Shown piece by piece: positions 1-15,957 of a stretch of DNA of 64,000 nucleotides (within the stretch, counting starts at the first letter, position 1; each line of letters begins with the position of its first letter). Source of the stretch: Flavihumibacter fluminis (lineage in GTDB: Bacteria; Bacteroidota; Bacteroidia; Chitinophagales; Chitinophagaceae); NCBI RefSeq assembly GCF_021491375.1, contig NZ_JAKEVY010000001.1:434001-498000 (forward strand). The letters run 5' to 3'. The notes beneath the pieces are model-generated. The model did not search any database. It was not told the DNA's origin and saw only the letters and a list, made by a program, of their open reading frames with translations. Both the position numbers and the translations under genes were made by a program.

Positions 1-1
1 C

Positions 2-457
2 GCTATTCTGAAAATTGAAGATCCCCGTTTTGAGCCGGTTCGCCATCTGCCTTATGGCATCCGCAAAGCAAAAGCGGACCTGGGTGAACAGATCTTTACA
101 TTAGGTTATCCCCGTACCGAGATCGTATACAATGAAGGATATCTGAGTGCCAAAACCGGTTACAATGGTGATACGGTTACCTATCAGATAGCTATTTCTG
201 CCAACCCGGGTAACTCTGGTGGCCCCATCTTCAACCAGCACGGTGAAGTGATCGGTGTACTTAGCGGTAAACAGGTTACTGCGGAGGGAGTAGTTTTTAG
301 CAGCCAGAGTAAGAACATTTTCAGAGCTCTGGACTCACTCAAACAGGATAGCAGCACCACTATCCGCATTCAGAGCAACTCCTCCGTAAAAGGAATTGAC
401 CGGGTAATGCAGATCAAAAGAATCGAGGAGTGTATTTACAATGTAATGAGTTATTGA
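2..457 (+). CDS. Trypsin-like serine protease, C-terminal part (5' end outside window)
   Basis: Only the last 151 codons are visible; the frame is open from base 2. The block ANPGNSGGPIF (serine codon at 215-217) is the active-site signature of trypsin-like (S1C, Deg/HtrA-like) proteases, and the preceding stretch with LGYPR and the following GEVIGVLSGKQ fit the second beta-barrel. The catalytic His and Asp would lie upstream of the window. No PDZ domain follows the protease barrel: after about 45 further residues the protein ends, so it is either a PDZ-less protease or carries its other domains at the N-terminus. The stop overlaps the convergent DUF1080 gene by 7 bp. The family is clear; the substrate is unknown. 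Confidence 0.85.
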   Translation, partial: AILKIEDPRFEPVRHLPYGIRKAKADLGEQIFTLGYPRTEIVYNEGYLSAKTGYNGDTVTYQIAISANPGNSGGPIFNQHGEVIGVLSGKQVTAEGVVFSSQSKNIFRALDSLKQDSSTTIRIQSNSSVKGIDRVMQIKRIEECIYNVMSY

Positions 458-1173
458 GCCGGAAGTAATTTCAGCCTGATATTACGGTACTGAACCCACA
501 TTTGTGGTGCAACGTGCAGTTGCAATCCCAGTAACCCTTTGACTGATCTGTTGACTGAATCAGCATCCAGCAATGCGCTCATTTTTTTTCCATTGATAAA
601 GTGCTCATATCGGAAACCTGCAGCTTTGATCACTAACTCATTCCAATCATTGGTTTTTATTGCATTCCGGAGTTCGTCCTGTGAACCAAGGCTATCCAGT
701 ACAATTGGCCCGGCGCCTGTCTTAAATTCAACAGACTCTCCTCTTTTAGCCAAAAAGCCACGCCCTCTCTCTTCATAGTTTTGTCCTGTATAGGTATTGG
801 CGCCATCAATATCTGCCTGATATCCTTTTAGTGCATAGCGCAAACCAGGCACTTCCTGGCTCCGGTATTGAACCCCACTATTCCCCTGCTCACTTATTCT
901 GTATTCCAATGTCAACTCAAAGTCTGATGGTAATTCACCGGTATAAACAAGAAATGTATTGTATTCCAACGGATGTTCCGGAGTTACTTCTCCGAAAATA
1001 GAACTATCCCTGATTTTCCAGTAGCTGGTATCTCCTTCCCAATTGGTAAAACTGACTCCATCAAAGAGTACATTCGTCTTTTCCTCTTTTGCAGCTGGTG
1101 TAGCACATCCTGCCAAAGCAACCATCCCGATTATAAATCCTACAGCTGCGCACGATCCGATTCTATTGTTCAT
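451..1173 (-). CDS. DUF1080 (3-keto-disaccharide hydrolase-like) lipoprotein
   Basis: A 240-residue lipoprotein: a hydrophobic signal ends in the lipobox ALAGC with the lipidated Cys at residue 23. The rest is a DUF1080 jelly-roll domain, recognisable from NVLFDGVSFTNW, EYRISEQGNSGVQYRS, GYQADID and the TGQNYEERGRG loop. Characterised members of this family act on 3-keto-glycosides or sit in glycan-degrading secretomes; activity here is inferred. It is the last gene of a four-gene leftward operon and begins 7 bp after the stop of the heme-containing dehydrogenase-like protein, so it probably acts at the cell surface or in the periplasm on a product of that protein. Confidence 0.85.
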   Translation of the reverse strand: MNNRIGSCAAVGFIIGMVALAGCATPAAKEEKTNVLFDGVSFTNWEGDTSYWKIRDSSIFGEVTPEHPLEYNTFLVYTGELPSDFELTLEYRISEQGNSGVQYRSQEVPGLRYALKGYQADIDGANTYTGQNYEERGRGFLAKRGESVEFKTGAGPIVLDSLGSQDELRNAIKTNDWNELVIKAAGFRYEHFINGKKMSALLDADSVNRSVKGLLGLQLHVAPQMWVQYRNIRLKLLPAQ

Positions 1174-1180
1174 CTGCCTA

Positions 1181-3826
1181 TTATTTTTTTCTGAATAAAC
1201 TATCCTCCCGGTTTCCTCCTGCTTTCAGGTACGCCAGTAAATCCTTTAATTCTTCCGGATTCAGGCGGTTTATCATATTGGGCAACATAGGAGAAATCTC
1301 CGACAACCGGGTTCGAACCACATCTGATTTGGCGAGCATCCGATGTTCCTGCGGCGCAAAAGGATTCTGTGCAATCGTGTAGCCCTTTTCATCCTCATCA
1401 ATCAATCTTCCCATTACAGTTTTGCCGGTTCGGAGATAGAAAACGGTTGCACCATACTGATCAGAGATGGATTTATTGGGTTCAATAATGGCTTCCAGCA
1501 TATCATGGTAGGAGAATCGGGTACCCAACTGCGTTAGATCGGGACCGCTTACGCCTCCCTCTCCTTTCATAGTATGACAGGAAGCGCATAAACTGGTTAC
1601 GAAGAGTCCCTGTCCTCTTTCAAAATTCCGATTGCTCATTCCGCTATCTACATACTTCATAGCATCTTCCACTGTCCAATCGCGGCCTGGTCCCTTGGGC
1701 TGCACTGCTTTTCCGGATTGCGCCACCACGGGCCGATTGGCAATAGAATCGCCGGATAAATCATTAAAGTAGGTAAATCTATTTTGAGGAACACCACTTA
1801 ATGCCTGCTTCCTGGCCAGGTTGATAAAACCAGCATAACTATGTCCGCCCTGGAACTGGAAAGCCTTTGTAAACCAGGCGAAATACTCCTTTTGCTGGGG
1901 TTCGTTCATTCCAGAACGGACCTGGCTGAGCACAGTAGCATAATAGGTTTGATTTTGCGGCGGAAATTTAGCCAGCGTACCTGCTATTCCCATTCCATAA
2001 TCCGGGTTGCGCATGATCAGGTCTTCCGAACTGGTCAGATTTTCTTCTTCCACCCATCCCTCTTCCTTTGGTTCAAGCATTAATTTCAGCGTATGCTGAA
2101 TCGCGGTAGTATCCCCCAGGTAAACCAGCACTTTGCTGAGCTGACGATTGAAAAGCGGTTCTTTTGGTAATGGAAAAGCAGATGCAAAATAAGCGGCCAA
2201 TTCTTTCCTGGTTGCCTCACCAGGTTTTGCTGATCGGCTTAAAAACAGTTCAACTGCCCGGATCATGTCCAGTTGTTGCTGGCGATCAAGTTCCCTGAAC
2301 GGAATTTTATTCAGTGTATTTTTTACAAGGGTCCAATCGGTGGCGCTACCAGCCTTTTTGGATAGGGCAAGAGTAGCCTGCACCAGTTTGGAACTTTGGG
2401 TGGTTGCATTCAGGTTTGGTAACCAGCTTGCCTTAGGAGATTGCTCCAGGATTTTCCTGGCTGCAAACCGGATTCCGGCATCCGCATGATCCAGGTTTGT
2501 CCAGGCAAGGGCTCTGCCCTTCTCATCCGGATTCACGTGAAAAGCTTCCAGTTCGCGACGCAGCTCATTTTCCGGGGAAATTACTGGTTTGGCAGCTGGC
2601 TCCTTTTTCAGGTGACCATCACCGTAATAAACCCTGTAGAGATCAGACTCAAGACGCCGGCCGCCGGTTAGAAAATACAGCGCACCATCCGGACCAATAA
2701 CACCATCGGTTAATGGTAATGGAGAACCGGAAAGAAATTCTTCCCCTTTTGCCGTATAACTGCTACCTGATGGCGTTGGCCAGATCGCATAAATAATTCC
2801 AAAACTCCAGTCGAAGGCAAACAACGCGTCGCGGTATTTTTCAGGGAATGCAGCATCCTTACCAGATACGATATTAGTGGGTGAACCCTGTCCAATGTTC
2901 AGCACAGCAGGGCGTCCATCAGAAAAAGAAGGGTGCCATTTGGCGGTGCCAGGCCGCCAGCCAAATTCACTGCCACTGGTTACATGGCAGACTCTTGTTG
3001 GTCTGTACCAGGGTGTACCCATATCCCATTCCATATCAGAATCATAGGTAAACATATCACCTGCCTCATTAAAGGCAAGGTCAAAGGGATTTCTGAAACC
3101 GGATGCATAGAGTTCCCAGTCAGTACCGGTTGAATCAACTTTAGCAATCCATCCCCCAAGCATGCCTACCGAATTATCGTGACCATTTGGATCCCGCAGC
3201 AAAGGAATCAGATTATCCAGCTGTGCATCCGGGGAACTGCGATAGGTTTTCATCTCCGGCAGTTTGGTGAAATTCCCGGCAATAACATAAAGCGATTGCT
3301 GATCCGGACCCAGTACTATGGAATGGGGACCATGTTCTCCCTCTCCTTCCAATGCTTTCAATAAGGTAACGGAATCATACTGATCATCGTTATTGGTATC
3401 CCTGAGCCGATACAGACCACTGCTTTTGGGATAACTGCTATCACCGCCATGATTCACCATTACGTACAAACTGTTAAATGCATAGAGTAACCCATGCGCA
3501 TAGCCGAAATTGAAATTGTCGACACGCAAGGGTTCTGCCACTACTTTACTGACCGTATCACCAATAGCGGGAATGGTCATACGATACAAACCACCATACT
3601 GATCGGAAGCAATCAATCGTCCTTTGTCATCAAAGGTCATGGCAACCCAGGAACCTTCTCCTTTTTCAGAGGGACCAAATAAACGTTCCGCCCGAAACCC
3701 TTCAGGCAATTGTAAGCTTGCCAGTTTGGGATCAGATGGAGTAACATATTCGGGAGTCTTTTCTTTACAGGCTCCAAATCCTAACAATACAACTAGCAAT
3801 ACGAATAAACCGGTACGGTTATACAT
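1181..3826 (-). CDS. PVC-type dehydrogenase-like lipoprotein with C-terminal heme c domain
   Basis: An 881-residue exported protein with a lipoprotein signal (LLGFGAC, Cys about residue 20). Residues about 30-420 form a beta-propeller of the glucose/sorbosone dehydrogenase type (membrane-bound dehydrogenase domain of planctomycetes). Residues about 430-690 are alpha-helical and HEAT-like. A cytochrome c domain follows, with the heme motif CASCH at about 747-751 and the sequence GVSGPDLTQLG typical of the 'putative heme-binding domain, Pirellula/Verrucomicrobium type'. A single-heme electron outlet suggests oxidation of a small molecule, possibly a sugar, outside the cytoplasm. Third gene of the operon, 14 bp behind the DUF1501 gene. 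The substrate cannot be read from sequence. Confidence 0.85.
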   Translation of the reverse strand: MYNRTGLFVLLVVLLGFGACKEKTPEYVTPSDPKLASLQLPEGFRAERLFGPSEKGEGSWVAMTFDDKGRLIASDQYGGLYRMTIPAIGDTVSKVVAEPLRVDNFNFGYAHGLLYAFNSLYVMVNHGGDSSYPKSSGLYRLRDTNNDDQYDSVTLLKALEGEGEHGPHSIVLGPDQQSLYVIAGNFTKLPEMKTYRSSPDAQLDNLIPLLRDPNGHDNSVGMLGGWIAKVDSTGTDWELYASGFRNPFDLAFNEAGDMFTYDSDMEWDMGTPWYRPTRVCHVTSGSEFGWRPGTAKWHPSFSDGRPAVLNIGQGSPTNIVSGKDAAFPEKYRDALFAFDWSFGIIYAIWPTPSGSSYTAKGEEFLSGSPLPLTDGVIGPDGALYFLTGGRRLESDLYRVYYGDGHLKKEPAAKPVISPENELRRELEAFHVNPDEKGRALAWTNLDHADAGIRFAARKILEQSPKASWLPNLNATTQSSKLVQATLALSKKAGSATDWTLVKNTLNKIPFRELDRQQQLDMIRAVELFLSRSAKPGEATRKELAAYFASAFPLPKEPLFNRQLSKVLVYLGDTTAIQHTLKLMLEPKEEGWVEEENLTSSEDLIMRNPDYGMGIAGTLAKFPPQNQTYYATVLSQVRSGMNEPQQKEYFAWFTKAFQFQGGHSYAGFINLARKQALSGVPQNRFTYFNDLSGDSIANRPVVAQSGKAVQPKGPGRDWTVEDAMKYVDSGMSNRNFERGQGLFVTSLCASCHTMKGEGGVSGPDLTQLGTRFSYHDMLEAIIEPNKSISDQYGATVFYLRTGKTVMGRLIDEDEKGYTIAQNPFAPQEHRMLAKSDVVRTRLSEISPMLPNMINRLNPEELKDLLAYLKAGGNREDSLFRKK

Positions 3827-3840
3827 TTATAAAAAAATTT

Positions 3841-5280
3841 TCAGGCGTTTTTAATTAATAGTTCTGGAATCGCTTTCCCTTTACCGTCGGGAGTGGTGTA
3901 AAATGGTCGTTGCTCTATCTCGACCTGTGTTTCTTCAGGAATTCCAAGGCAATGGTAAATGGTCTGATGCAACTGATCAATTCGGACAGGATTTTCAATG
4001 GTCTTGCAGGGACGCTCATCAGCGGTTTTTCCATACACGAATCCTTTTTTGATGCCACCTCCGAAAAGCAATACTGAACCGGCATCTGTAAAATGACGGT
4101 GCATGCCATAAAACTTCATATCATGCAATACATCCGGCTGATCCACCTGCTCCTGAACTTTGAAATCAGGCTTGCCTTCCACCATCATATCCCTGCTGAA
4201 TTCACTTGCCAGAATGATCAGGGTACGGTCTAAGTGCCCCGACTGCTCCAGGTCTTTTATCAGTTGTGCAATAGGAGCATCGATCATTTTTTTCATATCA
4301 ACCATCCGGGTATGACCGTTTTCATGGGTATCAAAACCAAAAAAAGGTTCATATTCCGTAGTTACACTGATGAAGCGCGCCCCCTGCTGGGTGAGTCGTT
4401 TGGCCATTAGACAACCCAGCCCAAATCTGCCGGTGTTATAGATATCGTAAGATTCTTTGGGTTCAAGACTCAGATTAAAAGCTTTTGCCTCCGGAGAATT
4501 GAGCAACCGGTACGATTGCTCCATGGATCGCTTCAGGGATTCTTTCTGATAGTCACTTCCAAATTCACCAAGCGGACTTTGATTGACCAGTTCTGTGTAG
4601 AGCTGGTTTCTTTTTTCAAAACGTTTTGCATCCATACCAACCGGCGGACGAACAGCATCCAGTCCCTGCGATGGGTCAGGTATTATGAAAGGTCCAAATT
4701 CATTGCCTAAGAATCCGGCTGTATGGAACGCTTTTAATTCTTCAGCCTCTCCAACTGTAAATCGTTGGCCAATATCAATAAAAGCTGGGATCACCGGATT
4801 TTTTGGTCCCTGCAGATAGGCTATCCATGCACCAATATGTGGAGCTGCTACTGTTTGAGGAGGTTCATAACAGGTATGCCAGTGATATTGGTGGCGTGCA
4901 TGCAGTATATGGCCCATATCCGCCGCTGTATAGGATCGAATCAGGGTGCCTTTGTCCATCACCTGTCCTATTTTTTCCAGTCCCTCCGAAAAATAGATAC
5001 CGTCCAGTTTGGTTGGAACTGCCGGGAAAGTGCTTAATACCCGGTTGGCATCCATCCCTTTTTCAAATGGGCTATATCTTTTGGGATCGAAGGTTTCAGT
5101 ATGAGCCACACCTCCCGCCATCCAGAGCAGAATGACTGTATCAGCGGAGGAATTGATTTTGTTGACCGGCTTACAACCAGGTAACCATCCGGCAATAGGG
5201 GCACCTGCTGCCATAGCAGCCAAACTGGCACCTGAACATTGTTTTAGAAATCTACGCCTGTTCCATTTTGAATTTGACAT
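3841..5280 (-). CDS. DUF1501 protein with Tat signal, probable lipoprotein
   Basis: The ATG at 5280 is chosen because it places the twin-arginine motif NRRRFLK at residues 7-13 and lies just behind the stop of the preceding gene; a further 19 upstream codons are open but would overlap that gene and spoil the signal. The protein is then 479 residues. The signal ends in a lipobox-like WLPGC, so a Tat-exported lipoprotein is likely. The body is DUF1501, a family related to the alkaline phosphatase/sulfatase fold, with the block STFPAVPTKLDGIYFSEGL and the late segment LIILASEFSRDMMVEGKPD. DUF1501 genes nearly always sit beside DUF1549/DUF1553 genes, as here. Catalytic activity is unproven for the family. 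Confidence 0.85.
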   Translation of the reverse strand: MSNSKWNRRRFLKQCSGASLAAMAAGAPIAGWLPGCKPVNKINSSADTVILLWMAGGVAHTETFDPKRYSPFEKGMDANRVLSTFPAVPTKLDGIYFSEGLEKIGQVMDKGTLIRSYTAADMGHILHARHQYHWHTCYEPPQTVAAPHIGAWIAYLQGPKNPVIPAFIDIGQRFTVGEAEELKAFHTAGFLGNEFGPFIIPDPSQGLDAVRPPVGMDAKRFEKRNQLYTELVNQSPLGEFGSDYQKESLKRSMEQSYRLLNSPEAKAFNLSLEPKESYDIYNTGRFGLGCLMAKRLTQQGARFISVTTEYEPFFGFDTHENGHTRMVDMKKMIDAPIAQLIKDLEQSGHLDRTLIILASEFSRDMMVEGKPDFKVQEQVDQPDVLHDMKFYGMHRHFTDAGSVLLFGGGIKKGFVYGKTADERPCKTIENPVRIDQLHQTIYHCLGIPEETQVEIEQRPFYTTPDGKGKAIPELLIKNA

Positions 5281-5294
5281 GGTGGTGGGCTTGA

Positions 5295-7709
5295 CTAGTA
5301 AATTAATTGAAATTCCGGATGCATCGCCATAATCCATAAAAAGTCCATAATAGCATCCTGATCGGGTTTATTTCCAAGAGCCTTGGTGGCCAGTTTCATT
5401 TCATCGGCCATCGGTTTTCTTCCCAATGCGCTTTTATATACTTCATCAATAAGTACAGAAGTGGCAGCATTTCGACGAACCCAATTTGCAGCAGCTCTTT
5501 TGATGCCTTCATGAAATACGGAACCGTTGGTTAGTTCAAGCGCCTGTATCAGGTTGGCCTGTGAACTTCGGCTAGTCGTAACCGTTTCACGTGCCGGCCT
5601 TCCCAATGCAGTGAGAAAAGGATCGTTTTTGACCAGGGCAGCCCTGGCAAAAGACATAATTGTGCTCACAGAATCCGGTAGCAGGTTAGCAACGATCACG
5701 CTATCCGGGTACAGCGGTTCAAACGCCGTTGCTACTGCATCTGCAAATTGCTCAGCTGTCATGCGTTTCCGGATCATGCCACCGAATTTGAAATCCTTTG
5801 CCAGCAACATTTCAGGCTCTTTCACGGAAACACTGGGTAGCTGGTAGGCTTCCGAACTCATGATAGTAAACAATAGTTTTTTCAGATCCGCGCCGGAGTT
5901 AGCAAAGTCATAAGCCAGCCAGTCGAGCAAATCCTGGTTCCAGGGTTCATTGTCCATAACATCTACCGGTTCCACTAATCCTCTGCCAAAAAGCTGGGCC
6001 CAGATCCGGTTTACAAGTGTGCGGTACAAGCGACCGTCTTTGGGTTGAACCAGTTTATCTGCCAGCTGCTCCAGTCTTTTTTGTTTGGGAAGTGTTTTAT
6101 CAATTTCTCCAAGCTGGGGATATAACATTCTGGTATCTGCCCATTTGCCTGTAGGCACATCACAACGCGCTATTTGAAGAATGGTATCAGAGAAGAGGTT
6201 GGCAAAGCCATAGGCGTCTTCCAGTTTCCAATCACTGATAAAACTATCATGGCAACTGGCACATTTCAAATTCAATCCGAGGAATACCTGTGCAACATTC
6301 TGGGCTGCCTGCATTTCTGTACTCTGACTCGAGTTAATGGTACCGCGCCACTGTATTCCTCTTATGAATCCTTGTGAAGCAGGTCCCGGATTCACCAGTT
6401 CTTTTACCATCTGATCGTATGACTTATTCTCATACAAGGATTGATACAACCATTTGGTGATATCAAAGCGTCCGCCTGTAATGTAACCGGTTCCGGTATA
6501 ATCGTTTCGCAACAAATCATTCCAGAAGCTCAGCCAGTGCTGAGTATAATCATGTTTTCGATCCAGCAGGGATGTTATCAGGCGTTCTCTTTTATCCGGA
6601 TGAGTATCAGCGAGAAAAGCATCAACAGAATCAGGAGTTGGCAAAAGACCAACCAGGTCGAGGTAGACCCGTTTCATAAAGAGGCGATCGTCAATACGGG
6701 TAGGCCATTTTTGCTTTGTCTGTTTAAAATAAGCATTCAGCAACCGATCTACCGGGTGTTTATAAGTTCCCTCAACCGGGGGCAATTCAGGGAGCCTGGG
6801 TTCCAGGGAAGCTACCCGGTAAAGACTTTTCAAAGGACCATCGGGCCAGGGAGCACCTTTGTTAATCCAGAATTCCAGCAGGTTGATTTCTTCTGCCGAA
6901 AGGGCTTTACCCTTTCCTGGCATGGCATCCTTGTGAGATCTTGGCAATTTGATCCGGCGGATCATTTCCGATGCGCTGGCATTTCCAGGCTGAATGACCG
7001 GACCGTTTTCACCACCCTGAAATACAAATTCTTTTTTGTCCAGCCTAAGTTCTCCTTTCACTTTTGCTGCACCATGACAACTGTAACAATGATGCGCAAG
7101 GATGCTGCGTACCTGGAAATTTAACTCAGCGGTGCTGGCTTCATCCAGCGGGCCATTAAAGGAGGCAAAATTAATGCCGGCCGGAGCTTCAACACCGGGT
7201 TCATCCTCTTTACCTGGCAGAACGCTGGTCAGATAATCTTCACCGTGAGTAAGCGAAGCACCAAAATGGCCGGCTACCGCCATGCTGAAAAAAGTAACAG
7301 CTAGCAACACAGAGCCCATGCGCTGTTTGCCATTGTAAAATAAACCTGCGGCCAGCAGGCATAAAAGAAGTGTGGAGATGCCGGTCCACTGATGTATATC
7401 CAATACTTCGCCGCCATAGGATTCAGCACTGGCCAATAACAGGCCGGCAATTACAGCTAACACCGAACTAATTGCTGCCACTGCAAGAATGATTCGAATG
7501 GCGGGGATGAATTCTGTTTTTTTTCTAACTACCCTTAGCAGGTCCAGCAAAAAAGCAATTGCAATCAAACCGATTGGAAAATGGACCAGGAGGGGATGAA
7601 GCCGACCAATCAATACCCAATACCAGGCAGTTGAACTGGATTCGGCAACCGGATCTGCCAATAAATAAAAAGGCAGGAAGAGAAACAATAAAAGGGATAC
7701 TACTTTCAT
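5295..7709 (-). CDS. Membrane protein with PSCyt1, DUF1549 and DUF1553 domains
   Basis: An 804-residue protein from the ATG at 7709. The N-terminal 170 residues hold a signal anchor and about four membrane helices with LHPLLVHFPIGL, the mark of a DUF2231-like heme-associated membrane module. Next come a planctomycete-type cytochrome c motif HHCYSCHG near residue 210 (PSCyt1), DUF1549 from about 330 (VDRLLNAYF, VYLDLVGLLPTPD), a second CxxCH (LKCASCH) near 485, and DUF1553 to the end (YRTLVNRIWAQLFGRGLVEPVD). It is first in the four-gene operon. Two potential c-type hemes plus a membrane module suggest that it passes electrons from the periplasm to the membrane. This is inference from the domains. 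Confidence 0.88.
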   Translation of the reverse strand: MKVVSLLLFLFLPFYLLADPVAESSSTAWYWVLIGRLHPLLVHFPIGLIAIAFLLDLLRVVRKKTEFIPAIRIILAVAAISSVLAVIAGLLLASAESYGGEVLDIHQWTGISTLLLCLLAAGLFYNGKQRMGSVLLAVTFFSMAVAGHFGASLTHGEDYLTSVLPGKEDEPGVEAPAGINFASFNGPLDEASTAELNFQVRSILAHHCYSCHGAAKVKGELRLDKKEFVFQGGENGPVIQPGNASASEMIRRIKLPRSHKDAMPGKGKALSAEEINLLEFWINKGAPWPDGPLKSLYRVASLEPRLPELPPVEGTYKHPVDRLLNAYFKQTKQKWPTRIDDRLFMKRVYLDLVGLLPTPDSVDAFLADTHPDKRERLITSLLDRKHDYTQHWLSFWNDLLRNDYTGTGYITGGRFDITKWLYQSLYENKSYDQMVKELVNPGPASQGFIRGIQWRGTINSSQSTEMQAAQNVAQVFLGLNLKCASCHDSFISDWKLEDAYGFANLFSDTILQIARCDVPTGKWADTRMLYPQLGEIDKTLPKQKRLEQLADKLVQPKDGRLYRTLVNRIWAQLFGRGLVEPVDVMDNEPWNQDLLDWLAYDFANSGADLKKLLFTIMSSEAYQLPSVSVKEPEMLLAKDFKFGGMIRKRMTAEQFADAVATAFEPLYPDSVIVANLLPDSVSTIMSFARAALVKNDPFLTALGRPARETVTTSRSSQANLIQALELTNGSVFHEGIKRAAANWVRRNAATSVLIDEVYKSALGRKPMADEMKLATKALGNKPDQDAIMDFLWIMAMHPEFQLIY

Positions 7710-7741
7710 TACTGGCAATCAATTGGCGCTTAACTTAAGAA

Positions 7742-7794
7742 GGGAAAGCGGATTCACTGTCCTGTTCTGTTCTGAACAACGAATCTGCTTTCCC
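7742..7794 (-). terminator. Dyad between the nucleotidyltransferase gene region and the DUF1553 operon
   Basis: GGGAAAGCGGATTC (7742-7755) pairs with GAATCTGCTTTCCC (7781-7794) with one wobble position. The loop holds a smaller dyad GTTC/GAAC. There is no clean T-run on either side, so it may be an operator or 5' UTR structure of the leftward operon starting at 7709 rather than a terminator. Confidence 0.4.
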
Positions 7795-7844
7795 TTATAA
7801 CGTTACAATTTAGTGCCGCTTGTAATGACTTTTCTGCCTAGCTA

Positions 7845-8744
7845 TTATTGCCAAAGATTATTTGGATATTCACCTGCTGCCACCAAAGCATCCAGGCTTG
7901 CCTGTACACTTGGAGCATCTTCTTTATAAGTAACGCCGAACCAGCTGGAACTGGTCTGAATAACAGGGATAACGCCTTTACCGGATTTTATAAAGTCATC
8001 TGCCACTATCGGAATGAAAAATTCTGCCTTGGGTTCCTGGTAATGTTTCTTTACAAAATCATTGAACATTTCCTGACTTATAGAGAATACAGAAGGATGG
8101 AAACACCAGAAATTCATGGACACACTGGAGTCAAGGGGAAGTTCCTCCGGCTCCTGGTTATCATCACATACAATTTTTCCATCTTTCATAGCAATATTCA
8201 GTCGCTCTGCAATGGACTCCAGGTTTCCGGCAGCATCAACGCGACAAACACCCCGGTTTACCGTACCATGTTCACTAAGGGTTTTCAGGAGTTCGTAACC
8301 AATGATAGCGTATTTATCGGGACTGCAAGCTGTTGTCAGGAAATCATACGCTTTTGCAAATGCATCGCGGCCATAAAAATCGTCTGCATTGATCACAGCA
8401 AATGGTTCCTGCACCGCATTTTTGGCACAGAGAACAGCATGTGCCGTACCCCAGGGTTTGGTCCTTCCATCCGGAACAGTTACATCCGGCAGGAAAGCAT
8501 CCAGACTCTGAAACACATAATCAACAGCAACTTTTCCATCCAGCTTGGAACCAAATACTTCTTTAAAATCATTCACAAATTCTTCCCGGATAATAAAGAC
8601 AACTTTGCCAAATCCGGCACGAATCGCATCATAGATGGAATATTCCATAATGGTTTCACCACTTGGACCAAACGACTGAATTTGTTTTAAACTTCCATAC
8701 CTGGATGCCATACCTGCTGCCAGAATTACTAAGGTTGGTTGCAT
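7845..8744 (-). CDS. Sugar nucleotidyltransferase family protein
   Basis: A 299-residue cytoplasmic nucleotidyltransferase. The start at 8744 gives the typical N-terminus MQPTLVILAAGMASRYGSLK, containing the nucleotide-binding GxxSR loop; the longer open frame upstream would collide with the divergent gene at 8785. INADDFYGRDAF near residue 120 holds the metal-binding Asp residues. Members of this family (COG1208-like) transfer a nucleotide to a sugar phosphate. It differs from RmlA and GalU in its spacing and lacks an acyltransferase tail, so the exact sugar is not assignable. It stands alone, with no glycosyltransferase neighbours. Confidence 0.85.
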   Translation of the reverse strand: MQPTLVILAAGMASRYGSLKQIQSFGPSGETIMEYSIYDAIRAGFGKVVFIIREEFVNDFKEVFGSKLDGKVAVDYVFQSLDAFLPDVTVPDGRTKPWGTAHAVLCAKNAVQEPFAVINADDFYGRDAFAKAYDFLTTACSPDKYAIIGYELLKTLSEHGTVNRGVCRVDAAGNLESIAERLNIAMKDGKIVCDDNQEPEELPLDSSVSMNFWCFHPSVFSISQEMFNDFVKKHYQEPKAEFFIPIVADDFIKSGKGVIPVIQTSSSWFGVTYKEDAPSVQASLDALVAAGEYPNNLWQ

Positions 8745-8784
8745 TCTTCTATTTTTGTTTCGGGCACGAATATAAATCATAAGA

Positions 8785-9684
8785 ATGACTTTATCCATTG
8801 ATACCGACCTCGTTACAATTGATAAAATCCAACTGTTTGCTGATCAGCAGGTGGAAACGGATATGCTGCGACTTGACAAAATCCACCCGCAAATCAGTGG
8901 TAACAAGTGGTTTAAGTTGAAATATTACCTTGAACAGGCTGTCCTGGAAAACCGTTCGGGCCTGATCAGTTTGGGTGGCCCCTGGTCTAACCATTTGCTG
9001 GCAGTGGCCGCCGCTGCCCGGGAAACTGGTCTAAAAAGCATTGGTATTATTCGGGGCGAAGCCCCTGCTCAACCTAGCGAAACCTTAGAAGAGCTAAAGT
9101 CCCTGGGCATGGAACTGGTTTTTGTTAGCCGGACTGCTTACCGGAACCGGGTCCAATTAGTAACTGACCTGAATACCAACTATCCTGATTATTTGGTTGT
9201 GGATGCGGGTGGTGAGGGTCCCACCGGTGCAAAAGGAGCAGCAGAAATACTTAGCTATGTTCCCGACCAGGATAGGTATACGCATATATTCTGTGCAGTT
9301 GGCACCGGAACGATGCTGGCAGGAATAGCCCTGGCAGCCGGAAAAGAACAACATGTGATCGGAATTTGCAGCCTTAAGGAGAAGGAAGAACAAACAGCTT
9401 CGATCCTGCAATGGTTTCCAACATTAGAAGACAGATTTGAAATTAATACAGCCTTTCATTTTGGGGGATTTGCGCGCCACACTGCTGAACTAACGGATTT
9501 TATGAACCTGTTCTACCGACAAACCGGTGTACCTACAGATATTGTATACACAGCAAAATTGTGTTATGCCTGGAAGCAGTTATATCTCGATAATTTTTTT
9601 CAACCCGGTTCGCGGGTGCTTTTAATTCACAGTGGCGGCTTACAGGGAAACCGGTCACTTGCTCCCGGTATTTTGACATTTTAA
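8785..9684 (+). CDS. PLP-dependent ACC deaminase / D-cysteine desulfhydrase family enzyme
   Basis: A 299-residue fold-type II PLP enzyme. SGNKWFKLKYYLEQA near residue 40 carries the Schiff-base lysine, LGGPWSNHLLA is the substrate-binding block, and CAVGTGTMLAGIAL is the glycine-rich phosphate loop. In this family the split between D-cysteine desulfhydrase and ACC deaminase depends on a few residues; most free-living bacterial members act on D-cysteine (pyruvate, sulfide and ammonia), which I favour. Start ATG is 40 bp from the divergent nucleotidyltransferase start, so the two share a promoter region. Single gene. Confidence 0.85.
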   Translation: MTLSIDTDLVTIDKIQLFADQQVETDMLRLDKIHPQISGNKWFKLKYYLEQAVLENRSGLISLGGPWSNHLLAVAAAARETGLKSIGIIRGEAPAQPSETLEELKSLGMELVFVSRTAYRNRVQLVTDLNTNYPDYLVVDAGGEGPTGAKGAAEILSYVPDQDRYTHIFCAVGTGTMLAGIALAAGKEQHVIGICSLKEKEEQTASILQWFPTLEDRFEINTAFHFGGFARHTAELTDFMNLFYRQTGVPTDIVYTAKLCYAWKQLYLDNFFQPGSRVLLIHSGGLQGNRSLAPGILTF

Positions 9685-9718
9685 TTGTTTTTAAAGCATG
9701 ACGACTGCCTTATATTTG
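9685..9718 (+). promoter_or_regulatory. Bacteroidota-type promoter, nearly leaderless
   Basis: TTG at 9685-9687, a 23-bp spacer and TATATTTG at 9711-9718 fit the TTG/TAnnTTTG consensus. Only 5 nt separate the -7 box from the ATG at 9724, so the transcript should start at or next to the start codon. Confidence 0.55.
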
Positions 9719-9723
9719 TTCCG

Positions 9724-10638
9724 ATGATGCATCCACAACGCTTATTATTCCGGCTTTGTCCGACTCTACTATTACTTTTCATTTCATTGGCCGGGAGCGC
9801 ACAGGATACCCTGCCAGCTTTTTCGGCAGAGATCAAATCAAAAAACAGGATCATCATCAGTTGGACCAATCCCTACGGAACTAAAATAAAGCAGCTTAGC
9901 ATCCAGCGTTCCAGGGACAGTAGCAGATTGTTCAAAACCATCATCAGTATACCGGATCCAACAGTTTTAAAAAACGGATTTGTAGACCAGAATTTACCTG
10001 ATACCAATTTTTATTACCGGGTTTATATTATGCTGGATGGTGGCGATTATGCTTTCAGTCAGGTTCGAAAAGCCCGGAGCTTACCTCCTCCTCCAAAACA
10101 CGAACCGGTTACCCGAAAGCCGGAACCTCCTGCAAAAGTGGAACCAATAAAGCAGGAGCCGGTGCAAAAACCCAAACCGGTTGAACCGGAAAAACCTAAA
10201 CTTCCCCTACCTCAACCTGAAAAATATCTCGTAATCAAAAAAGGAGATGAAATTGTAGGTGAACTCAACGAACGATTCCTGCAAAGATTTCGGGATTCCG
10301 TGAGTATGCGAACCAAAGACACCATTCTGTTAACCAGCAGAGATACGCTATTGATTAAGCCCTTTCAGCCCAAAGAAGTTTACGGTGTTTCTAAATATGT
10401 GTTCATTGATAAAGCCGGACTGGTTCATATTGAATTACCCTGGTATGCCAGAAGAAAATATATTGTAAAGTTTTTTGAAGAAGACCGCTCCCCTCTTTTT
10501 GAAATTAAAGAGGTACGGGATGCGGTACTCCTGCTGGACAAAGCTAATTTTATGCAGGCTGGCTGGTATCTTTTTGAAATCTATGAAGACGGAAAACTGC
10601 TGGAGAAAAACAAATTGTTTGTTGGAAAAGATTTCTGA
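9724..10638 (+). CDS. Secreted hypothetical protein with proline/lysine-rich linker
   Basis: A 304-residue exported protein of unknown function. The ATG at 9724 starts a clear signal peptide (MMHPQRLLFRLC then a leucine-rich core, cleavage near AGSAQD). Residues about 30-120 look like a fibronectin III-type beta domain (IISWTNPYGTKIKQLSIQRS, FYYRVYIMLDGGDYAFSQ). A Pro/Lys/Glu-rich linker with repeated KPEP/VEPIKQEP units spans about 125-170. The C-terminal half is a second, unrecognised domain, beta-rich in appearance. The linker resembles those crossing the peptidoglycan or periplasm. The gene ends 2 bp before the convergent lipB stop. Confidence 0.75.
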   Translation: MMHPQRLLFRLCPTLLLLFISLAGSAQDTLPAFSAEIKSKNRIIISWTNPYGTKIKQLSIQRSRDSSRLFKTIISIPDPTVLKNGFVDQNLPDTNFYYRVYIMLDGGDYAFSQVRKARSLPPPPKHEPVTRKPEPPAKVEPIKQEPVQKPKPVEPEKPKLPLPQPEKYLVIKKGDEIVGELNERFLQRFRDSVSMRTKDTILLTSRDTLLIKPFQPKEVYGVSKYVFIDKAGLVHIELPWYARRKYIVKFFEEDRSPLFEIKEVRDAVLLLDKANFMQAGWYLFEIYEDGKLLEKNKLFVGKDF

Positions 10639-10640
10639 GT

Positions 10641-11342
10641 TCAGAAAGTAGGCCAATTCCTGTTTGCTTCCAGTTGAAATACCTCTTCAAATTCCCCGAT
10701 GAGTACCTGTTTCACTTCCTCCATATCCAGTTTCTTACCCAACTCCTTTTCCAAAGAGGTAACAGACTTCTGACGAATCCCGCAAGGGATAATCATATCA
10801 AAATAAGAAAGATCCGTATTCACATTAAAGGCAAAGCCATGCATGGTAACCCATCTGCTGCAACGAACCCCCATGGCGCAGATCTTTCTCTCCTGTCCCG
10901 ATATGGATGGATCTAACCATACACCTGTTTCACCCGAAGAGCGCTCTCCCTTTAATCCATAATGGGCCATCGTGCGAATGATTACTTCTTCCAGGTTCCG
11001 AAGGTATTTGCCAATATCCGTGTAAATTTTCTCAAGGTCAAGTATGGGATAACCAACTATTTGTCCGGGACCATGATAAGTAATATCCCCTCCCCGGTTG
11101 GTTTTAAAGAATTCAATTCCTTTCTGTATTCGGGTAGCATCATCAATCAGGACATGTTCCATCAGGCCACTTTTACCTAGTGTATAAACCGGAGGATGTT
11201 CTACCAGCAGGAAATAATGCCGGGTGGCATCCGGATTACCTGAAGCTTTCAGGGCCAGGTTCTCCTGCAGGAGTTTTTCCTGGTAATCCCAGGCGGGTTG
11301 ATAAGACATGTTACCTAAATCACGAAGGAAGAATGGCTGCAT
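10641..11342 (-). CDS. lipB: Octanoyl-[acyl-carrier-protein]:protein N-octanoyltransferase
   Basis: LipB moves octanoate from acyl carrier protein onto the lipoyl domains of 2-oxoacid dehydrogenases and GcvH, the first step of lipoate synthesis. The 233-residue form from the ATG at 11342 (MQPFFLRDLG) is normal in length. Diagnostic blocks: HPPVYTLGKSG at 49-59, RGGDITYHGPGQ at 83-94, the lysine in KICAMGVRC and IIPCGI, whose Cys is the acyl-thioester nucleophile. lipA is not in the window. It is a single gene, divergent from rluD, with a promoter box only 4 nt before the start. Confidence 0.95.
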   Translation of the reverse strand: MQPFFLRDLGNMSYQPAWDYQEKLLQENLALKASGNPDATRHYFLLVEHPPVYTLGKSGLMEHVLIDDATRIQKGIEFFKTNRGGDITYHGPGQIVGYPILDLEKIYTDIGKYLRNLEEVIIRTMAHYGLKGERSSGETGVWLDPSISGQERKICAMGVRCSRWVTMHGFAFNVNTDLSYFDMIIPCGIRQKSVTSLEKELGKKLDMEEVKQVLIGEFEEVFQLEANRNWPTF

Positions 11343-11346
11343 TTTG

Positions 11347-11354
11347 CAAATGTA
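11347..11354 (-). promoter_or_regulatory. -7 box of lipB, leaderless arrangement
   Basis: On the minus strand this reads TACATTTG, a full match to TAnnTTTG, followed by CAAA and then the lipB ATG. No good -33 TTG is present at 17-23 bp. Confidence 0.5.
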
Positions 11355-11376
11355 CAACGGACTGCAGCGGGAATTG

Positions 11377-11384
11377 TATTTTTG
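11377..11384 (+). promoter_or_regulatory. -7 box of rluD
   Basis: TATTTTTG matches TAnnTTTG and lies 15 nt before the ATG at 11400. It is opposite to and about 25 bp from the lipB box, so the two divergent promoters overlap back to back. Confidence 0.45.
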
Positions 11385-11399
11385 CGAAAATTTGAGCAC

Positions 11400-12476
11400 A
11401 TGGCGATGGATCCGGCAGAAGATGAACTGGAAGACCAGGCGGAAAGTTCTGACGAGTTATATGAACAGCATTTCCTGAAAATAGACGGAGGACAGGAACC
11501 TTTACGGATCGATAAATTCCTGGTAGCACGTATTGAATATGCTACCCGCAATAAAGTTCAGAAAGCAATTGATGCAGGCAGGGTGTTGGTGAATGGTAAA
11601 CCTACCCAGTCCAATTATAAAATCAAACCAGGGGATGAAATCGTGGTGTATTCACACCGCGAAAAAAGAGGGGAACATATTGATCCGCAGGCCATGCCCC
11701 TGAATATTGTTTTTGAGGATCCGGATATTATGATCATCAACAAACCTGCCGGGCTTGTTGTGCATCCCGGATCAGGCAACCCCGATGGAACCCTGATCAA
11801 TGGAGTTGCCTGGTACCTGCAGCAGCAGAACCCGGGAATTACGGAAGAAAACCTGCCTCGCTTTGGACTCATCCACCGAATTGATAAAAACACCAGTGGA
11901 TTAATGGTGCTGGCCAAAACTGATACTGCTGTTACCTCACTGGCCAAACAGTTTTTCAATCACACCGTATACCGCAGGTATATTGCCCTGGTCTGGGGTG
12001 ATCCCGCCGAAGATGAGGGAACAGTAATTGCGCATATTGGCCGGCATAAACGTTTCAGAAAATTATTTGATGCCTACCCCGAAGGTGAATATGGTAAGGA
12101 TGCCATCACACATTACACCGTACTGGAACGTTTCGGTTATGTATCCCTGGTAGAATGCCGGCTTGAGACAGGAAGAACACATCAGATCAGGGTGCATATG
12201 CAGCATATCGGGCATCCCCTCTTCAATGACGATTTTTATGGTGGAGACCGAATCGTGAAAGGCACGGTTTACACCAAATACAAGCAGTTTATTGATAATT
12301 GCTTTGCAGTTTGTCCCCGGCATGCTTTACACGCCAAAAGTATCGGCTTTCAGCATCCGCGCACTGGTGAAGCCATGAAGTTTGAATCGGAACTGCCTGC
12401 AGACATGCAGGAACTGATTGAAAAATGGAGGCGGTATGTAAAATCCAAAGGAGATCTAATTTCCGAAACCAAATAA
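11400..12476 (+). CDS. rluD: 23S rRNA pseudouridine synthase, RluD type
   Basis: A 358-residue RluA-family pseudouridine synthase. An acidic N-terminal leader precedes an S4 RNA-binding domain (residues about 35-95: LRIDKFLVARIEYATRNKV, then GDEIVVYS). The catalytic block GLIHRIDKNTSGLMVLAKT places the nucleophilic Asp at 162, and RLETGRTHQIRVHMQHIGHP is the second family signature. S4 plus this active site indicates RluD-like modification of the helix 69 loop of 23S rRNA. The ATG at 11400 is used; a TTG further up is open but would overlap the promoter box. Its last 21 bp overlap the convergent secreted-protein gene. Confidence 0.92.
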   Translation: MAMDPAEDELEDQAESSDELYEQHFLKIDGGQEPLRIDKFLVARIEYATRNKVQKAIDAGRVLVNGKPTQSNYKIKPGDEIVVYSHREKRGEHIDPQAMPLNIVFEDPDIMIINKPAGLVVHPGSGNPDGTLINGVAWYLQQQNPGITEENLPRFGLIHRIDKNTSGLMVLAKTDTAVTSLAKQFFNHTVYRRYIALVWGDPAEDEGTVIAHIGRHKRFRKLFDAYPEGEYGKDAITHYTVLERFGYVSLVECRLETGRTHQIRVHMQHIGHPLFNDDFYGGDRIVKGTVYTKYKQFIDNCFAVCPRHALHAKSIGFQHPRTGEAMKFESELPADMQELIEKWRRYVKSKGDLISETK

Positions 12477-13403
12477 GGTGGCGGTAAAAATCCCCCGTTC
12501 TCTTTTTTTGAAAGCAACTTTCCAATCCCCGGTATAACGAAGCAGGGAGGGAACCAGCAAGTCTCCCAACCTTGTCATTTCCACTTCCATGCGCACATCA
12601 AAATCGTATACCCCTGCCCGGTAGCTAAGATCATAGCGGCGGGCGAGTATGCGCATATCCGAAGGATGAAACCAGGTATCCACCCGGTTCAGCACAATAT
12701 CAGAACGCTTTCCGGCTGGTAAGTCAGGCAAGGACGCTATACGAAACACGTATGCATTTTCGCCTTTGTAGTTTTCCATATCGAGCACAAATTCATAGAG
12801 CTCCGACATCGGTGGTTCATAAATATTGATCTTATCTCCAATAAAAGGAATACCCGGTATTTTTCTTCCCGGGTTAAAAAAAAGCATCTTTAATTGCTCC
12901 TTGTGCTTTTCCAGTCCCCGTTTATTTTTCAGACTAAGCTCTGCCTGCGATACAGAATTGTTTTCACCACAGATTTTTCCATTCGTAAAAAACAAACTGG
13001 CATACATTTCCATCGTGGTGTAGTTCCAGTCGCCATTTTTATCCTTGATATCTCCTGCTAGTTTTTCCTCCTGAACCTGCATTTCTCTACATCCATTCTC
13101 GAAACTTTGTATAGTACGACTTTGCAGGGAACCACTAACCTTTCCTTTTTTATCCATCATACGGACATCATTTAATGCCGTATAATTGATCTCCCGCAGG
13201 TTTTTAAACGCGCGGTAAAAACTGGTATCGAGCTGGATTCTACGCACAAAACCGGGCACATCCAGGTTGGATAGTACCACTACTTCTTTGAGGGTAACGA
13301 TTTTATCATCTATTGTAAGCAGGGAATCCTGGGCTCTTGCCGTAAAAGAAGAACCAAACAAAAGCAACCCAAAATACAGCAGGGAGGATAAGGATAATTT
13401 CAA
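12456..13403 (-). CDS. Secreted hypothetical protein, TTG start
   Basis: A 315-residue exported protein that I do not recognise. The first codon is TTG: there is no in-frame ATG upstream, and the next internal Met would remove the obvious signal peptide (KLSLSSLLYFGLLLF, cleavage near TARAQD). The start lies 12 bp behind def, so it is probably the last gene of the trmH-ubiA-ruvX-def operon. The mature part is mixed alpha/beta with KEVVVLSNLDVPGFVRRI near the N-terminus and a beta-rich C-terminus (DTWFHPSDMRILARRYDL). It could be an outer-membrane-associated protein of the plug-like kind, but there is no domain I can name. Confidence 0.75.
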   Translation of the reverse strand: MKLSLSSLLYFGLLLFGSSFTARAQDSLLTIDDKIVTLKEVVVLSNLDVPGFVRRIQLDTSFYRAFKNLREINYTALNDVRMMDKKGKVSGSLQSRTIQSFENGCREMQVQEEKLAGDIKDKNGDWNYTTMEMYASLFFTNGKICGENNSVSQAELSLKNKRGLEKHKEQLKMLFFNPGRKIPGIPFIGDKINIYEPPMSELYEFVLDMENYKGENAYVFRIASLPDLPAGKRSDIVLNRVDTWFHPSDMRILARRYDLSYRAGVYDFDVRMEVEMTRLGDLLVPSLLRYTGDWKVAFKKRERGIFTATLFGFGN

Positions 13404-13415
13404 GTGGATGCGATC

Positions 13416-13994
13416 TTATTTAGGAAATAACATTCTGTAATCAACCCGGATTTTTCCTTTGGAAATATCATCCAGTTTCCGTTTCAGCAAGGTCCTTTTC
13501 AGAGGCTTGATATGATCAATGAAAAGTTTTCCCTCAATATGATCATATTCATGAAGAATGACCCTTGCTGTAATTCCAGTGAAGGTTTTTTCCTGGGGTT
13601 CAAATGCATCATTCAGGTAGGTGAGGGTAACCGTTTCTTTACGCATGACATCTTCCCGAACCTTGGGTATGCTCAAACAGCCTTCATTGTAGGCCCATTC
13701 CTCTCCATCCAGGTCCTTAATTTGTGCATTGATGAAAACTTCGCGGATACCTTCATCTCCGGGGTATTCTTTCTTTTCATCTTCATCCAGGTTATGAATG
13801 ATTTGAAGACTGTCCACCACAAATAAACGAATGGGACGATTGATTTGAGGCGCAGCAAGACCTACCCCATTGCTATTGTACATGGTCTCCCACATATCCG
13901 CAATCAGTTGCTCCAGTCCCGGATACTCTTTATCAATCTCTGTGCCCACTGCCCGTAGAACCGGATGGCCATATGCTACAATAGGTAATATCAT
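13416..13994 (-). CDS. def: Peptide deformylase
   Basis: Removes the formyl group from the N-terminal Met of new proteins, using a metal held by one Cys and two His. All three family motifs are present in 192 residues: GVGLAAPQI, EGCLSIP (metal Cys) and HEYDH at 148-152 (metal His plus catalytic Glu; Tyr replaces the more common Phe or Leu). The start at 13994 (MILPIVAYGHPVLR) is the normal N-terminus. It follows ruvX by 26 bp in the same operon. The formyltransferase gene fmt is not in the window. Confidence 0.96.
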   Translation of the reverse strand: MILPIVAYGHPVLRAVGTEIDKEYPGLEQLIADMWETMYNSNGVGLAAPQINRPIRLFVVDSLQIIHNLDEDEKKEYPGDEGIREVFINAQIKDLDGEEWAYNEGCLSIPKVREDVMRKETVTLTYLNDAFEPQEKTFTGITARVILHEYDHIEGKLFIDHIKPLKRTLLKRKLDDISKGKIRVDYRMLFPK

Positions 13995-14020
13995 GAATTT
14001 TAAACGATTAGCGGGCAAAG

Positions 14021-14434
14021 TTACGAAATCCGGCCCAACCATTCCTGCAATAAGATGGTAGCTGCAATTTCATCTACCAGGGCTTTATTCTGGCGGGCTT
14101 TCTTTTTTAATCCCGATTGCAGCATGGTTTGCTTTGCCATTACGGAAGTATAGCGTTCATCTACCTTTTCAATTGGCAATTGCGGGAAGTTTTTCTGGAT
14201 TTCCTTTATGGCAGCTGCAACAAGGGGCGTTGCATGTGTTTCGGAATCATCCCAATTGCGGGGATCTCCTATGATGATACGCTCCACCTGCTCTGCCGCC
14301 AGGTATTTCTTCAGGAAGGGAATCAATTCTTTGGATTCAATGGTAGTAAGTCCGGTTGCAATGATCTGCAAAGGATCCGTGACTGCGATTCCGGTTCTTT
14401 TTCCGCCATAATCAATGGCCATTATTCTGGGCAT
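14021..14434 (-). CDS. ruvX: RuvX/YqgF family RNase H-fold nuclease
   Basis: A 137-residue protein of the YqgF family, known as a putative Holliday junction resolvase and in some bacteria as a 16S rRNA 5'-end processing nuclease. The RNase H fold shows as RIMAIDYGGKRTGIAVTD (first catalytic Asp), IIIGDP, KVDERYTSVMAKQTM (catalytic Glu) and KALVDEIAATILLQEWL (last Asp). Length is typical. It lies between ubiA (11 bp) and def (26 bp) in a leftward operon; the ruvX-def neighbourhood fits a role in ribosome maturation as well as in DNA repair. Confidence 0.93.
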   Translation of the reverse strand: MPRIMAIDYGGKRTGIAVTDPLQIIATGLTTIESKELIPFLKKYLAAEQVERIIIGDPRNWDDSETHATPLVAAAIKEIQKNFPQLPIEKVDERYTSVMAKQTMLQSGLKKKARQNKALVDEIAATILLQEWLGRIS

Positions 14435-14445
14435 GGTTATCTATT

Positions 14446-15333: not shown

Positions 15334-15338
15334 CGATC

Positions 15339-15866
15339 TTATATTTTTTTTCGTACCAGCTCCCACAATACGATTCCTGCTGCAATGGAAACATTCAGAG
15401 AATGTTTCATCCCAAACTGGGGAATTTCGATGGATCCCTTGCACATCGGTAATACTGCTGCATCAACGCCATTTACTTCATTGCCAAAAATCAGGGCAAT
15501 TTTCTCATTGGGTTCCTGGTAAAGCTGGTTCAGGGGTATGCTGTCTGTCACCTGCTCTACCGCGAAAACCTCATAGTCCTGGTTCCGCAATTCCTCTACT
15601 GCTTCACTGGTTGTAGCATAATAACGCCAATGAACGGTTTCGGTTGCACCCAGCGCTGTTTTATGAATATCCCGGTGGGGCGGCTGCGGGGTATAACCAC
15701 AGAGATAAATAGCTTCGATCAGGAAAGCATCTGCGGTTCGGAATACACTCCCCACATTATGCATACTTCTAATATTATCCAGCACCACCACAATGGGAAT
15801 TTTCTCGGATTGTTTGAACTCATCTACTGATTTTCTTCCCAGTTCCTCCAGGCGAAGTTTACGCAT
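15339..15866 (-). CDS. TrmH/SpoU-family RNA 2'-O-methyltransferase
   Basis: A 175-residue SPOUT methyltransferase. The three family motifs are present: VLDNIRSMHNVGSVFRTADAF (motif 1, Asn and Arg), IALIFGNEVNGVD (motif 2) and IPQFGMKHSLNVSIAAGIVLWEL (motif 3, SAM-binding knot). The protein lacks the N-terminal L30e-like domain of RlmB, so the target may be a tRNA or an rRNA site; it is close in size to TrmL/TrmH-like proteins. Start ATG at 15866 lies 4 nt behind a promoter box. It is first in the operon with ubiA, ruvX and def, and divergent from mutS. Confidence 0.88.
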   Translation of the reverse strand: MRKLRLEELGRKSVDEFKQSEKIPIVVVLDNIRSMHNVGSVFRTADAFLIEAIYLCGYTPQPPHRDIHKTALGATETVHWRYYATTSEAVEELRNQDYEVFAVEQVTDSIPLNQLYQEPNEKIALIFGNEVNGVDAAVLPMCKGSIEIPQFGMKHSLNVSIAAGIVLWELVRKKI

Positions 15867-15870
15867 GCTG

Positions 15871-15878
15871 CAAATATA
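15871..15878 (-). promoter_or_regulatory. -7 box of the trmH-ubiA-ruvX-def operon, leaderless
   Basis: Reads TATATTTG on the minus strand, 4 nt before the ATG at 15866. A TTG occurs 14 bp upstream, somewhat short for a -33 box. Confidence 0.5.
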
Positions 15879-15943
15879 CAAAGATTGATTCCCAACTTTT
15901 CCCCACCGTGATTTCACCCGGAGGGGCATCTAAGGGAAGACCC

Positions 15944-15951: not shown

Positions 15952-15957
15952 CTGCCT

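Follow-up and report, generated by a model that had tools for sequence, protein, structure and literature searches.

A stretch of 64,000 nucleotides of the Flavihumibacter fluminis genome (the window; positions 434,001 to 498,000 of contig NZ_JAKEVY010000001.1, assembly GCF_021491375.1) carries, at one end, an operon of four genes for exported proteins that we read, at a little under even odds (about 0.45), as a module for the respiration-linked oxidation and cleavage of a periplasmic sugar. Three lines of evidence support this reading: the gene neighborhood of the operon's relatives, the export signals and the invariance of the heme positions. The unit that is conserved among relatives is narrower than four genes and consists of a heme protein and its DUF1501 neighbor. 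New here are the fused build of the heme protein and the histidines invariant in it, the fold and the changed site of the DUF1501 protein, a relation between DUF1553 and DUF1800, and a measured co-occurrence of the gene families. The four genes are as follows.

7709-5295, minus strand: fused heme protein gene, 804 amino acids, with DUF2231 at residues 37-155, PSCyt1 at 208-264, PSCyt2/DUF1549 at 319-509 and PSD1/DUF1553 at 547-776.
5280-3841, minus strand: DUF1501 protein gene, 479 amino acids, assigned by Pfam, with a twin-arginine translocation (Tat) signal, a probable lipobox at Cys36 and a predicted alkaline-phosphatase-superfamily fold with an altered site.
3826-1181, minus strand: propeller-cytochrome c gene, 881 amino acids, matching TIGR02603 and Cytochrom_C; a probable lipoprotein.
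1173-451, minus strand: DUF1080 gene, 240 amino acids, of PF06439, the '3-keto-disaccharide hydrolase' family; a probable lipoprotein.

The first-pass annotation of this DNA had described four genes with intergenic gaps of 14, 14 and 7 bp and essentially these domains, and both Pfam, with matches judged against the curated cut-offs, and the NCBIfam models that were used in addition agree with it. In the first protein DUF2231 (46 bits), PSCyt1 (50 bits), PSCyt2/DUF1549 (160 bits) and PSD1/DUF1553 (131 bits) all score above cut-off and in that order; the remaining three proteins match DUF1501 (PF07394; 236 bits, above cut-off), Cytochrom_C (41 bits, above cut-off) and 3keto-disac_hyd, that is DUF1080 (106 bits against a cut-off of 26.8). 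The heme sites are also where they had been placed: the membrane protein has CxxCH motifs beginning at residues 208 and 483, the heme c domain of the propeller protein has one at 747, and the other two proteins have none. Export of the DUF1501 protein through the Tat route as a probable lipoprotein, again proposed earlier, is consistent with an NCBIfam TAT signal score of 17.9 (cut-off 16.7), and the genome, 4.7 Mb in 41 contigs, encodes TatC and cytochrome c assembly proteins.

The first protein of the operon is a fusion: its two parts are encoded by separate genes in each of the five other systems of the genome. The genome has five more DUF1549 genes (six in all), each of which sits in a triple made up of PSCyt1-DUF1549-DUF1553, then DUF1501, then DUF2231-PSCyt1; for loci L056, L059 and L060, three of these five triples, Pfam confirms the architecture, and for the remaining two the evidence is from phmmer only. 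The window protein joins the first and third members of such a triple in a single chain; that each paralogous system has DUF2231-PSCyt1 as a gene of its own shows that the two halves of the fusion go together. In Runella, Aquirufa, Spirosoma and relatives, the fused pair is followed by an unfused triple on the same strand (L080, L085, L091, L094, L114, L126, L146 and others; at about 9000-16800).

DUF2231 is the N-terminal domain that the first-pass annotation had left unnamed. In an alignment of the heme protein (81 rows, 78 distinct), both CxxCH motifs (one in PSCyt1, one in DUF1549) and Met263 are invariant in 81/81 rows, and so are His38, His43, His106, His148 and His155, which are all of the histidines of residues 1-184. 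The same five histidines are invariant in 19/19 separate DUF2231-PSCyt1 proteins. The structure model of the heme protein has a predicted local distance difference test score (pLDDT) of 76, falling below 50 at residues 32-37, and in it DUF2231 forms four helices of membrane-spanning length (38-62, 68-93, 103-125 and 129-155). His38 and His43 lie where helix 1 begins, His106 where helix 3 begins, and helix 4 has His148 and His155 close to its end; as modeled, all five histidines would face the side of the cytochrome domains, that is, the periplasm. Their invariance suggests heme b, and we infer that they probably either hold such a heme or line a quinone site. Direct sequence search with the heme protein against the PDB gave no match at E <= 1, and Foldseek with the 804-residue model gave none at E <= 0.001. 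A profile search against the PDB returned cytochromes (best FoxE, E 3.3e-4) together with matches resembling chance, and the VIA-align list for residues 28-159 was filled by helix bundles (cytochrome b562, CcmF and STEAP1). We do not take the similarity to STEAP and b562 as a sign of homology, since Z scores of this size are common among helical bundles.

Our evidence on the second protein bears on its fold and on its site. Its model is weak (pLDDT 55, predicted template modeling score 0.65) and a direct sequence search against the PDB gave no match at E <= 1. Going by their titles, the 50 Foldseek matches listed are all members of the alkaline phosphatase superfamily, with LtaS, sulfatases and ENPP among the relatives; two of them reach E <= 0.001 (best 3.1e-4, to LtaP), with low TM-scores of about 0.2-0.33. 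VIA-align with residues 46-476 matched ENPP6 with a Z of 15.2 and a root-mean-square deviation of 5.3 A over 240 aligned residues. In hhalign comparisons with the genome's own sulfatases, made with no unrelated control, the window clade of DUF1501 gave E 1.2e-4 (probability 55%) and the canonical DUF1501 paralogues gave E 7.5e-6 (probability 84%), and the sulfatase model matches one DUF1501 paralogue below cut-off (20.2 bits). The first-pass annotation held that DUF1501, DUF1549 and DUF1553 have no established activity. In the literature searched (mostly open-access papers, and part of the large listings) we likewise found no reaction for any of the three, which is not proof of absence; yet for DUF1501 a fold class can be assigned, the modeled structure and the comparisons above pointing to the alkaline phosphatase superfamily.

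The comparison of sites covered 23 canonical DUF1501 paralogues and the window clade (86 rows, 83 distinct). The serine of the GxPS motif, position 59, is Ser in 23/23 canonical proteins and Ala in 85/85 clade members, and the aspartate of GRDH, position 395, is Asp in 23/23 and Arg in 85/85. The clade has in turn acquired histidines at positions 60, 130 and 394 (85/85 each), 124 (81/85) and 133 (80/85), and His127, Asp317, His319, Glu360, Arg363 and His396 are common to both groups. A smaller DUF1501 alignment placed the GRDH stretch differently, and the roles that we ascribe to these residues would be those of their presumed counterparts in the superfamily. The closest named relatives of the window DUF1501 protein are from Flavihumibacter (99 and 98%).

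DUF1501 has another partner, DUF1800, of which DUF1553 is a distant relative. When the heme-protein alignment was compared by hhalign with 30 DUF1800 proteins, the score was 57.9 (E 3e-6, probability 88%, 99 columns), whereas the best of 40 block-shuffled controls scored 33.6, the reversed control 17.1 and unrelated families at most 24.0. The aligned stretch corresponds to residues 507-637 of the window protein and is densest at 591-637. Canonical paralogues match the same place more weakly (E 0.0012, 32 columns), and the direct Pfam match of the heme protein to DUF1800 has an E of 0.063 only. Within the limits of the literature search given above, we found neither this relation nor a function for DUF2231. 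The genome itself has a DUF1800-DUF1501 pair beside a DUF1080 gene of the opposite strand (L073, C32:874000-893999 of the same genome, at 5538-8946), the pair and the DUF1080 gene being convergent and DUF1800 replacing the heme protein. Published work places DUF1800-DUF1501 pairs next to bacterial chitin synthases and a sugar epimerase (PMC5122149).

The first-pass annotation treated the four families as a set, and in this respect our counts do not agree with it. A scan of a collection of genome contigs with the DUF1501 protein gave 351 relatives, of which the 80 best were retained, mostly from Dyadobacter, Larkinella, Runella, Spirosoma, Flavihumibacter and other Chitinophagaceae; one was left out and 79 were used, and with 31 of these loci from Dyadobacter they are not 79 independent events. 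The heme protein adjoins DUF1501 in 78/79 loci, which argues that the operon is more than a chance arrangement. The propeller gene, by comparison, is downstream in 38/79 and DUF1080 is found in 9/79, and the notion that the four genes always travel together is rejected by these counts. SusD lies upstream in 42/79 loci and downstream of the first pair in 32/79, the latter all in Dyadobacter or Larkinella, and a second DUF1501 is downstream in 15/79. The propeller is present in five genera, in three of which DUF1080 comes after it. At least 540 bp past the propeller are available in 31 of the 38 propeller loci, and in 29 of these 31 the next gene encodes either DUF1080 (9) or an AP_endonuc_2 TIM barrel of the xylose-isomerase-like kind (20), the two exceptions being L084 (DUF4432 next) and L128 (last frame cut off); the 540-bp limit was chosen after seeing the table, and any value from 178 to 548 bp yields the same 31 loci.

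With regard to distribution, 29 of 79 genomes of the same family have some DUF1501 relative, and 7, the window genome included, have the close type (at least 69% identity). Across the phylum, the heme protein was detected at E <= 1e-60 in 16 of 395 genomes. As far as its domains go, the operon is rightly called 'Planctomycete-type', but relatives of the fused form occur in several families of the Bacteroidota. Import of the whole operon from a Planctomycete is not supported, given that those 16 phylum genomes have relatives of the fused form and that each of the 80 top relatives, out of 351, is from the Bacteroidota by its title (a comparison with no tree and with other phyla not searched).

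The link to sugars comes from neighboring genes and from DUF1080. In a hand-picked set of relatives, the neighbors named by Pfam include SusC, SusD, AP_endonuc_2, DUF4432, Gfo/Idh, an arabinose-isomerase-like protein, GH106 and UxuA, and GH29 stands beside paralogous systems. In the window genome one paralogous triple lies immediately ahead of, and co-directional with, genes for an aldolase, iolB, iolC, iolD and a sodium symporter, after which come aldehyde dehydrogenase, AP_endonuc_2 and Gfo/Idh. This triple-iol cluster (L060, C11:592000-611999 of the same genome, at 1-11648, and L207 at 9987-13457) is a lead to a cyclitol substrate. The ordinary 3-keto arrangement is found elsewhere in the genome, where a Gfo/Idh protein is encoded beside a double DUF1080 protein. 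PDB relatives of the DUF1080 protein include 4jqt and 8rr2. The earlier statement that DUF1080 proteins are linked to 3-keto-sugars is in line with the literature: their description as 3-keto-sugar hydrolases rests on BT2157, which has been tied to 3-keto-trehalose, and on lactose-use genetics, and for the Caulobacter DUF1080 protein encoded beside LacABC in lactose use the hydrolase role is a proposal (PMC9007349). BT2158 has been described as a periplasmic glycoside 3-dehydrogenase (PMC11300592). A carbohydrate role of PSCyt genes has already been suggested from context, and the density of PSCyt genes opposes that of glycoside hydrolases (r = -0.62), which fits such a role only indirectly (PMC5615132).

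The third protein carries a TIGR02603 heme-binding domain (82.9 bits, cut-off 68.15) whose CxxCH (Cys747, Cys750 and His751 in full-protein numbering) is invariant in 17/17 sequences; the PDB has solved relatives of this domain (7zs0 and others) under the name of a hypothetical diheme protein. Its match to TIGR02604, the PVC-type propeller, is 70.5-71.4 bits and below the cut-off of 122.2. Other propeller proteins of the genome (frames of 1139 and 1148 amino acids, at C11:1331590-1332498 and C32:651070-651912) are TIGR02604-like (119.4 bits, below cut-off) or match the glucose/sorbosone dehydrogenases (GSDH; 110 bits), and lie about 94 kb or more from DUF1549 genes.

We favor a scheme in which (i) a periplasmic glycoside or oligosaccharide would be oxidized, most likely by the propeller protein; (ii) the propeller protein would hand the electrons to its own heme c; (iii) from there the electrons would reach the DUF2231 membrane domain of the first protein by way of that protein's two c-type hemes, and in this domain the histidines probably bind heme b or form a quinone site; (iv) the DUF1080 protein would cleave the keto-product; and (v) DUF1501, as the standing partner of DUF1549-DUF1553, would probably bind or process the same substrate with a metal. 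The first-pass annotation had proposed a similar oxidation of sugar. Export, the heme domains and the sugar genes near relatives speak for it, but a role of the propeller as a sugar dehydrogenase of the pyrroloquinoline quinone (PQQ) type is uncertain, for the reasons given below. The operon has the following flanks.

7845-8798: nucleotidyltransferase gene.
2-457, plus strand: trypsin-like peptidase (Trypsin_2) gene, cut by the window edge and convergent with the DUF1080 gene, the coding regions overlapping by 7 bp.

With these two genes as flanks, there are no sugar-uptake genes directly beside the window operon. At 23373-24236 of the window, minus strand, about 16 kb from the operon, a 673-amino-acid frame matches the sulfatase family (PF00884, 135.6 bits).

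Several observations weigh against the scheme. SusC and SusD are not beside the Flavihumibacter operon (SusD in 0/4 named loci, and in the window the flanks just listed), and neither a Gfo/Idh nor a GMC dehydrogenase was found among the four operon proteins or the three flanking genes scanned. The propeller protein has no match to PF07995, the GSDH family, and hhalign against three GSDH proteins of the same genome gave E 0.0012 over 240 columns with a probability of only 19.5%. What speaks for the scheme in that weak alignment is that His165 and Arg245-Asn246 fall on GSDH motif positions; RxRD is not kept, the propeller having PLTD where the genome's two best GSDH proteins have RFRD and RLRD; we take these motifs to be the catalytic His, the RN pair and the PQQ-binding RxRD. 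PqqE is not above cut-off in the genome (61 versus 381 bits), but in the same search it was not above cut-off in any of 14 control genomes either (0/14). A propeller in need of PQQ would require an outside supply. There is also the matter of missing genes: no propeller was found nearby in 41/79 loci, nor in 35/72 of the loci that extend at least 8 kb downstream, and DUF1080 is absent from 70/79, from which it follows that the core pair must work without them. Since DUF1800, with a CxxCH in 0/30 proteins, pairs with DUF1501 too, the core reaction need not be redox. DUF1080 in addition has a non-keto member, an endo-xanthanase/lichenase (PMC9007349), and DUF1080 proteins have been linked to xanthan breakdown in a planctomycete (PMC5673643), so activity is not readable from the domain alone. 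Lastly, deletion of BT2157 or BT2158 in B. thetaiotaomicron caused no defect on raffinose-family sugars (PMC11501099).

The same loci without a propeller (35/72 having at least 8 kb downstream) raise the possibility, which we consider unlikely, that the DUF1549-DUF1553 and DUF1501 pair itself oxidizes the substrate at a His-rich metal site on DUF1501, and that the propeller is an optional second enzyme or a relay. The gain of His60, His124, His130, His133 and His394 in the clade and the loss of Ser59 and Asp395 would fit such a site. Furthermore, the clade pair occurs beside GH106 (L086) with no propeller relative found by phmmer in that stretch, and paralogous triples occur beside a fucosidase (L072) and beside inositol genes (L060), where phmmer again found no propeller relative. 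On the other hand, we know of no oxidoreductase in the alkaline phosphatase superfamily, and the DUF1800-DUF1501 pair persists even though DUF1800 has no CxxCH.

It is likewise unlikely, in our estimation, that the module hydrolyzes or transfers glycans, with DUF1501 acting as an alkaline-phosphatase-type hydrolase or transferase, DUF1553 or DUF1800 as its helper, and the hemes serving only as a tie to respiration or sensing. The fold matches of DUF1501 to LtaS, sulfatases and ENPP agree with this idea, as does the company that DUF1800-DUF1501 keeps with bacterial chitin synthases and a sugar epimerase (PMC5122149). However, the clade is without the Ser and the Asp that canonical DUF1501 keeps in 23/23, and the heme positions are invariant in all 81 rows. 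A broader and quite speculative scenario, to which we give a low weight, is that DUF1501 and a helical partner (DUF1800 or DUF1549-DUF1553) would constitute an ancient envelope machine that modifies sugars and cyclitols, and that it would have been electrified here by fusion of a heme-c/heme-b chain to the partner, with the DUF1501 site rebuilt as a His-rich metal center, so that redox metalloenzymes of a new class would have arisen on this fold. Least likely is that two independent pairs, heme protein-DUF1501 and propeller-DUF1080, are adjacent by chance, as might be argued from the pairs also standing apart (no propeller in 41/79, SusD downstream of the first pair in 32/79), given that five genera have the genes in this order on one strand and that the window gaps are 14, 14 and 7 bp.

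Whether read as a sugar-oxidizing module, as we prefer, or otherwise, the operon is a small, testable version of the PSCyt systems that Planctomycetes have in very large numbers; it has relatives among Bacteroidota in culture, and it brings a fused, probable membrane exit for electrons, adjoining sugar enzymes and the related DUF1800-DUF1501 pair into one frame. In R. baltica two domains of the PSCyt set occur in 41 copies each (PMC2754498), and PSCyt2 genes have been reported next to another unknown family (PMC5615132). The PSCyt1-DUF1549-DUF1553 (PSD1) sets of Planctomycetes and Verrucomicrobia have the same domains in the same order as the window protein, which differs from them in its N-terminal DUF2231 fusion and in the changed site of its DUF1501 partner. 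Its DUF1549 and DUF1553 are also divergent, scoring 160 and 131 bits where the scored paralogues reach 255-295 and 286-340, and it is without the laminin-G-like insert that is present in one paralogue. The DUF1800-DUF1501 pair shares the DUF1501 partner, DUF1553 and DUF1800 being distantly related (E 3e-6), and both kinds of pair are present in the genome; however, the partner in the window has two c-type heme sites and a membrane domain whereas DUF1800 has no CxxCH. With the 3-keto-glycoside pathways (LacABC with DUF1080; BT2156-BT2160) the operon has DUF1080 in common, and some of its relatives also have AP_endonuc_2 and Gfo/Idh, but a propeller-cytochrome stands where a Gfo/Idh or GMC dehydrogenase would be expected. 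Finally, the soluble PQQ glucose/sorbosone dehydrogenases (PF07995) share the propeller, and a weak alignment places His165 and Arg245-Asn246 at their motif positions, whereas the window propeller has no match to that family, carries PLTD for RxRD and has an added cytochrome c domain.

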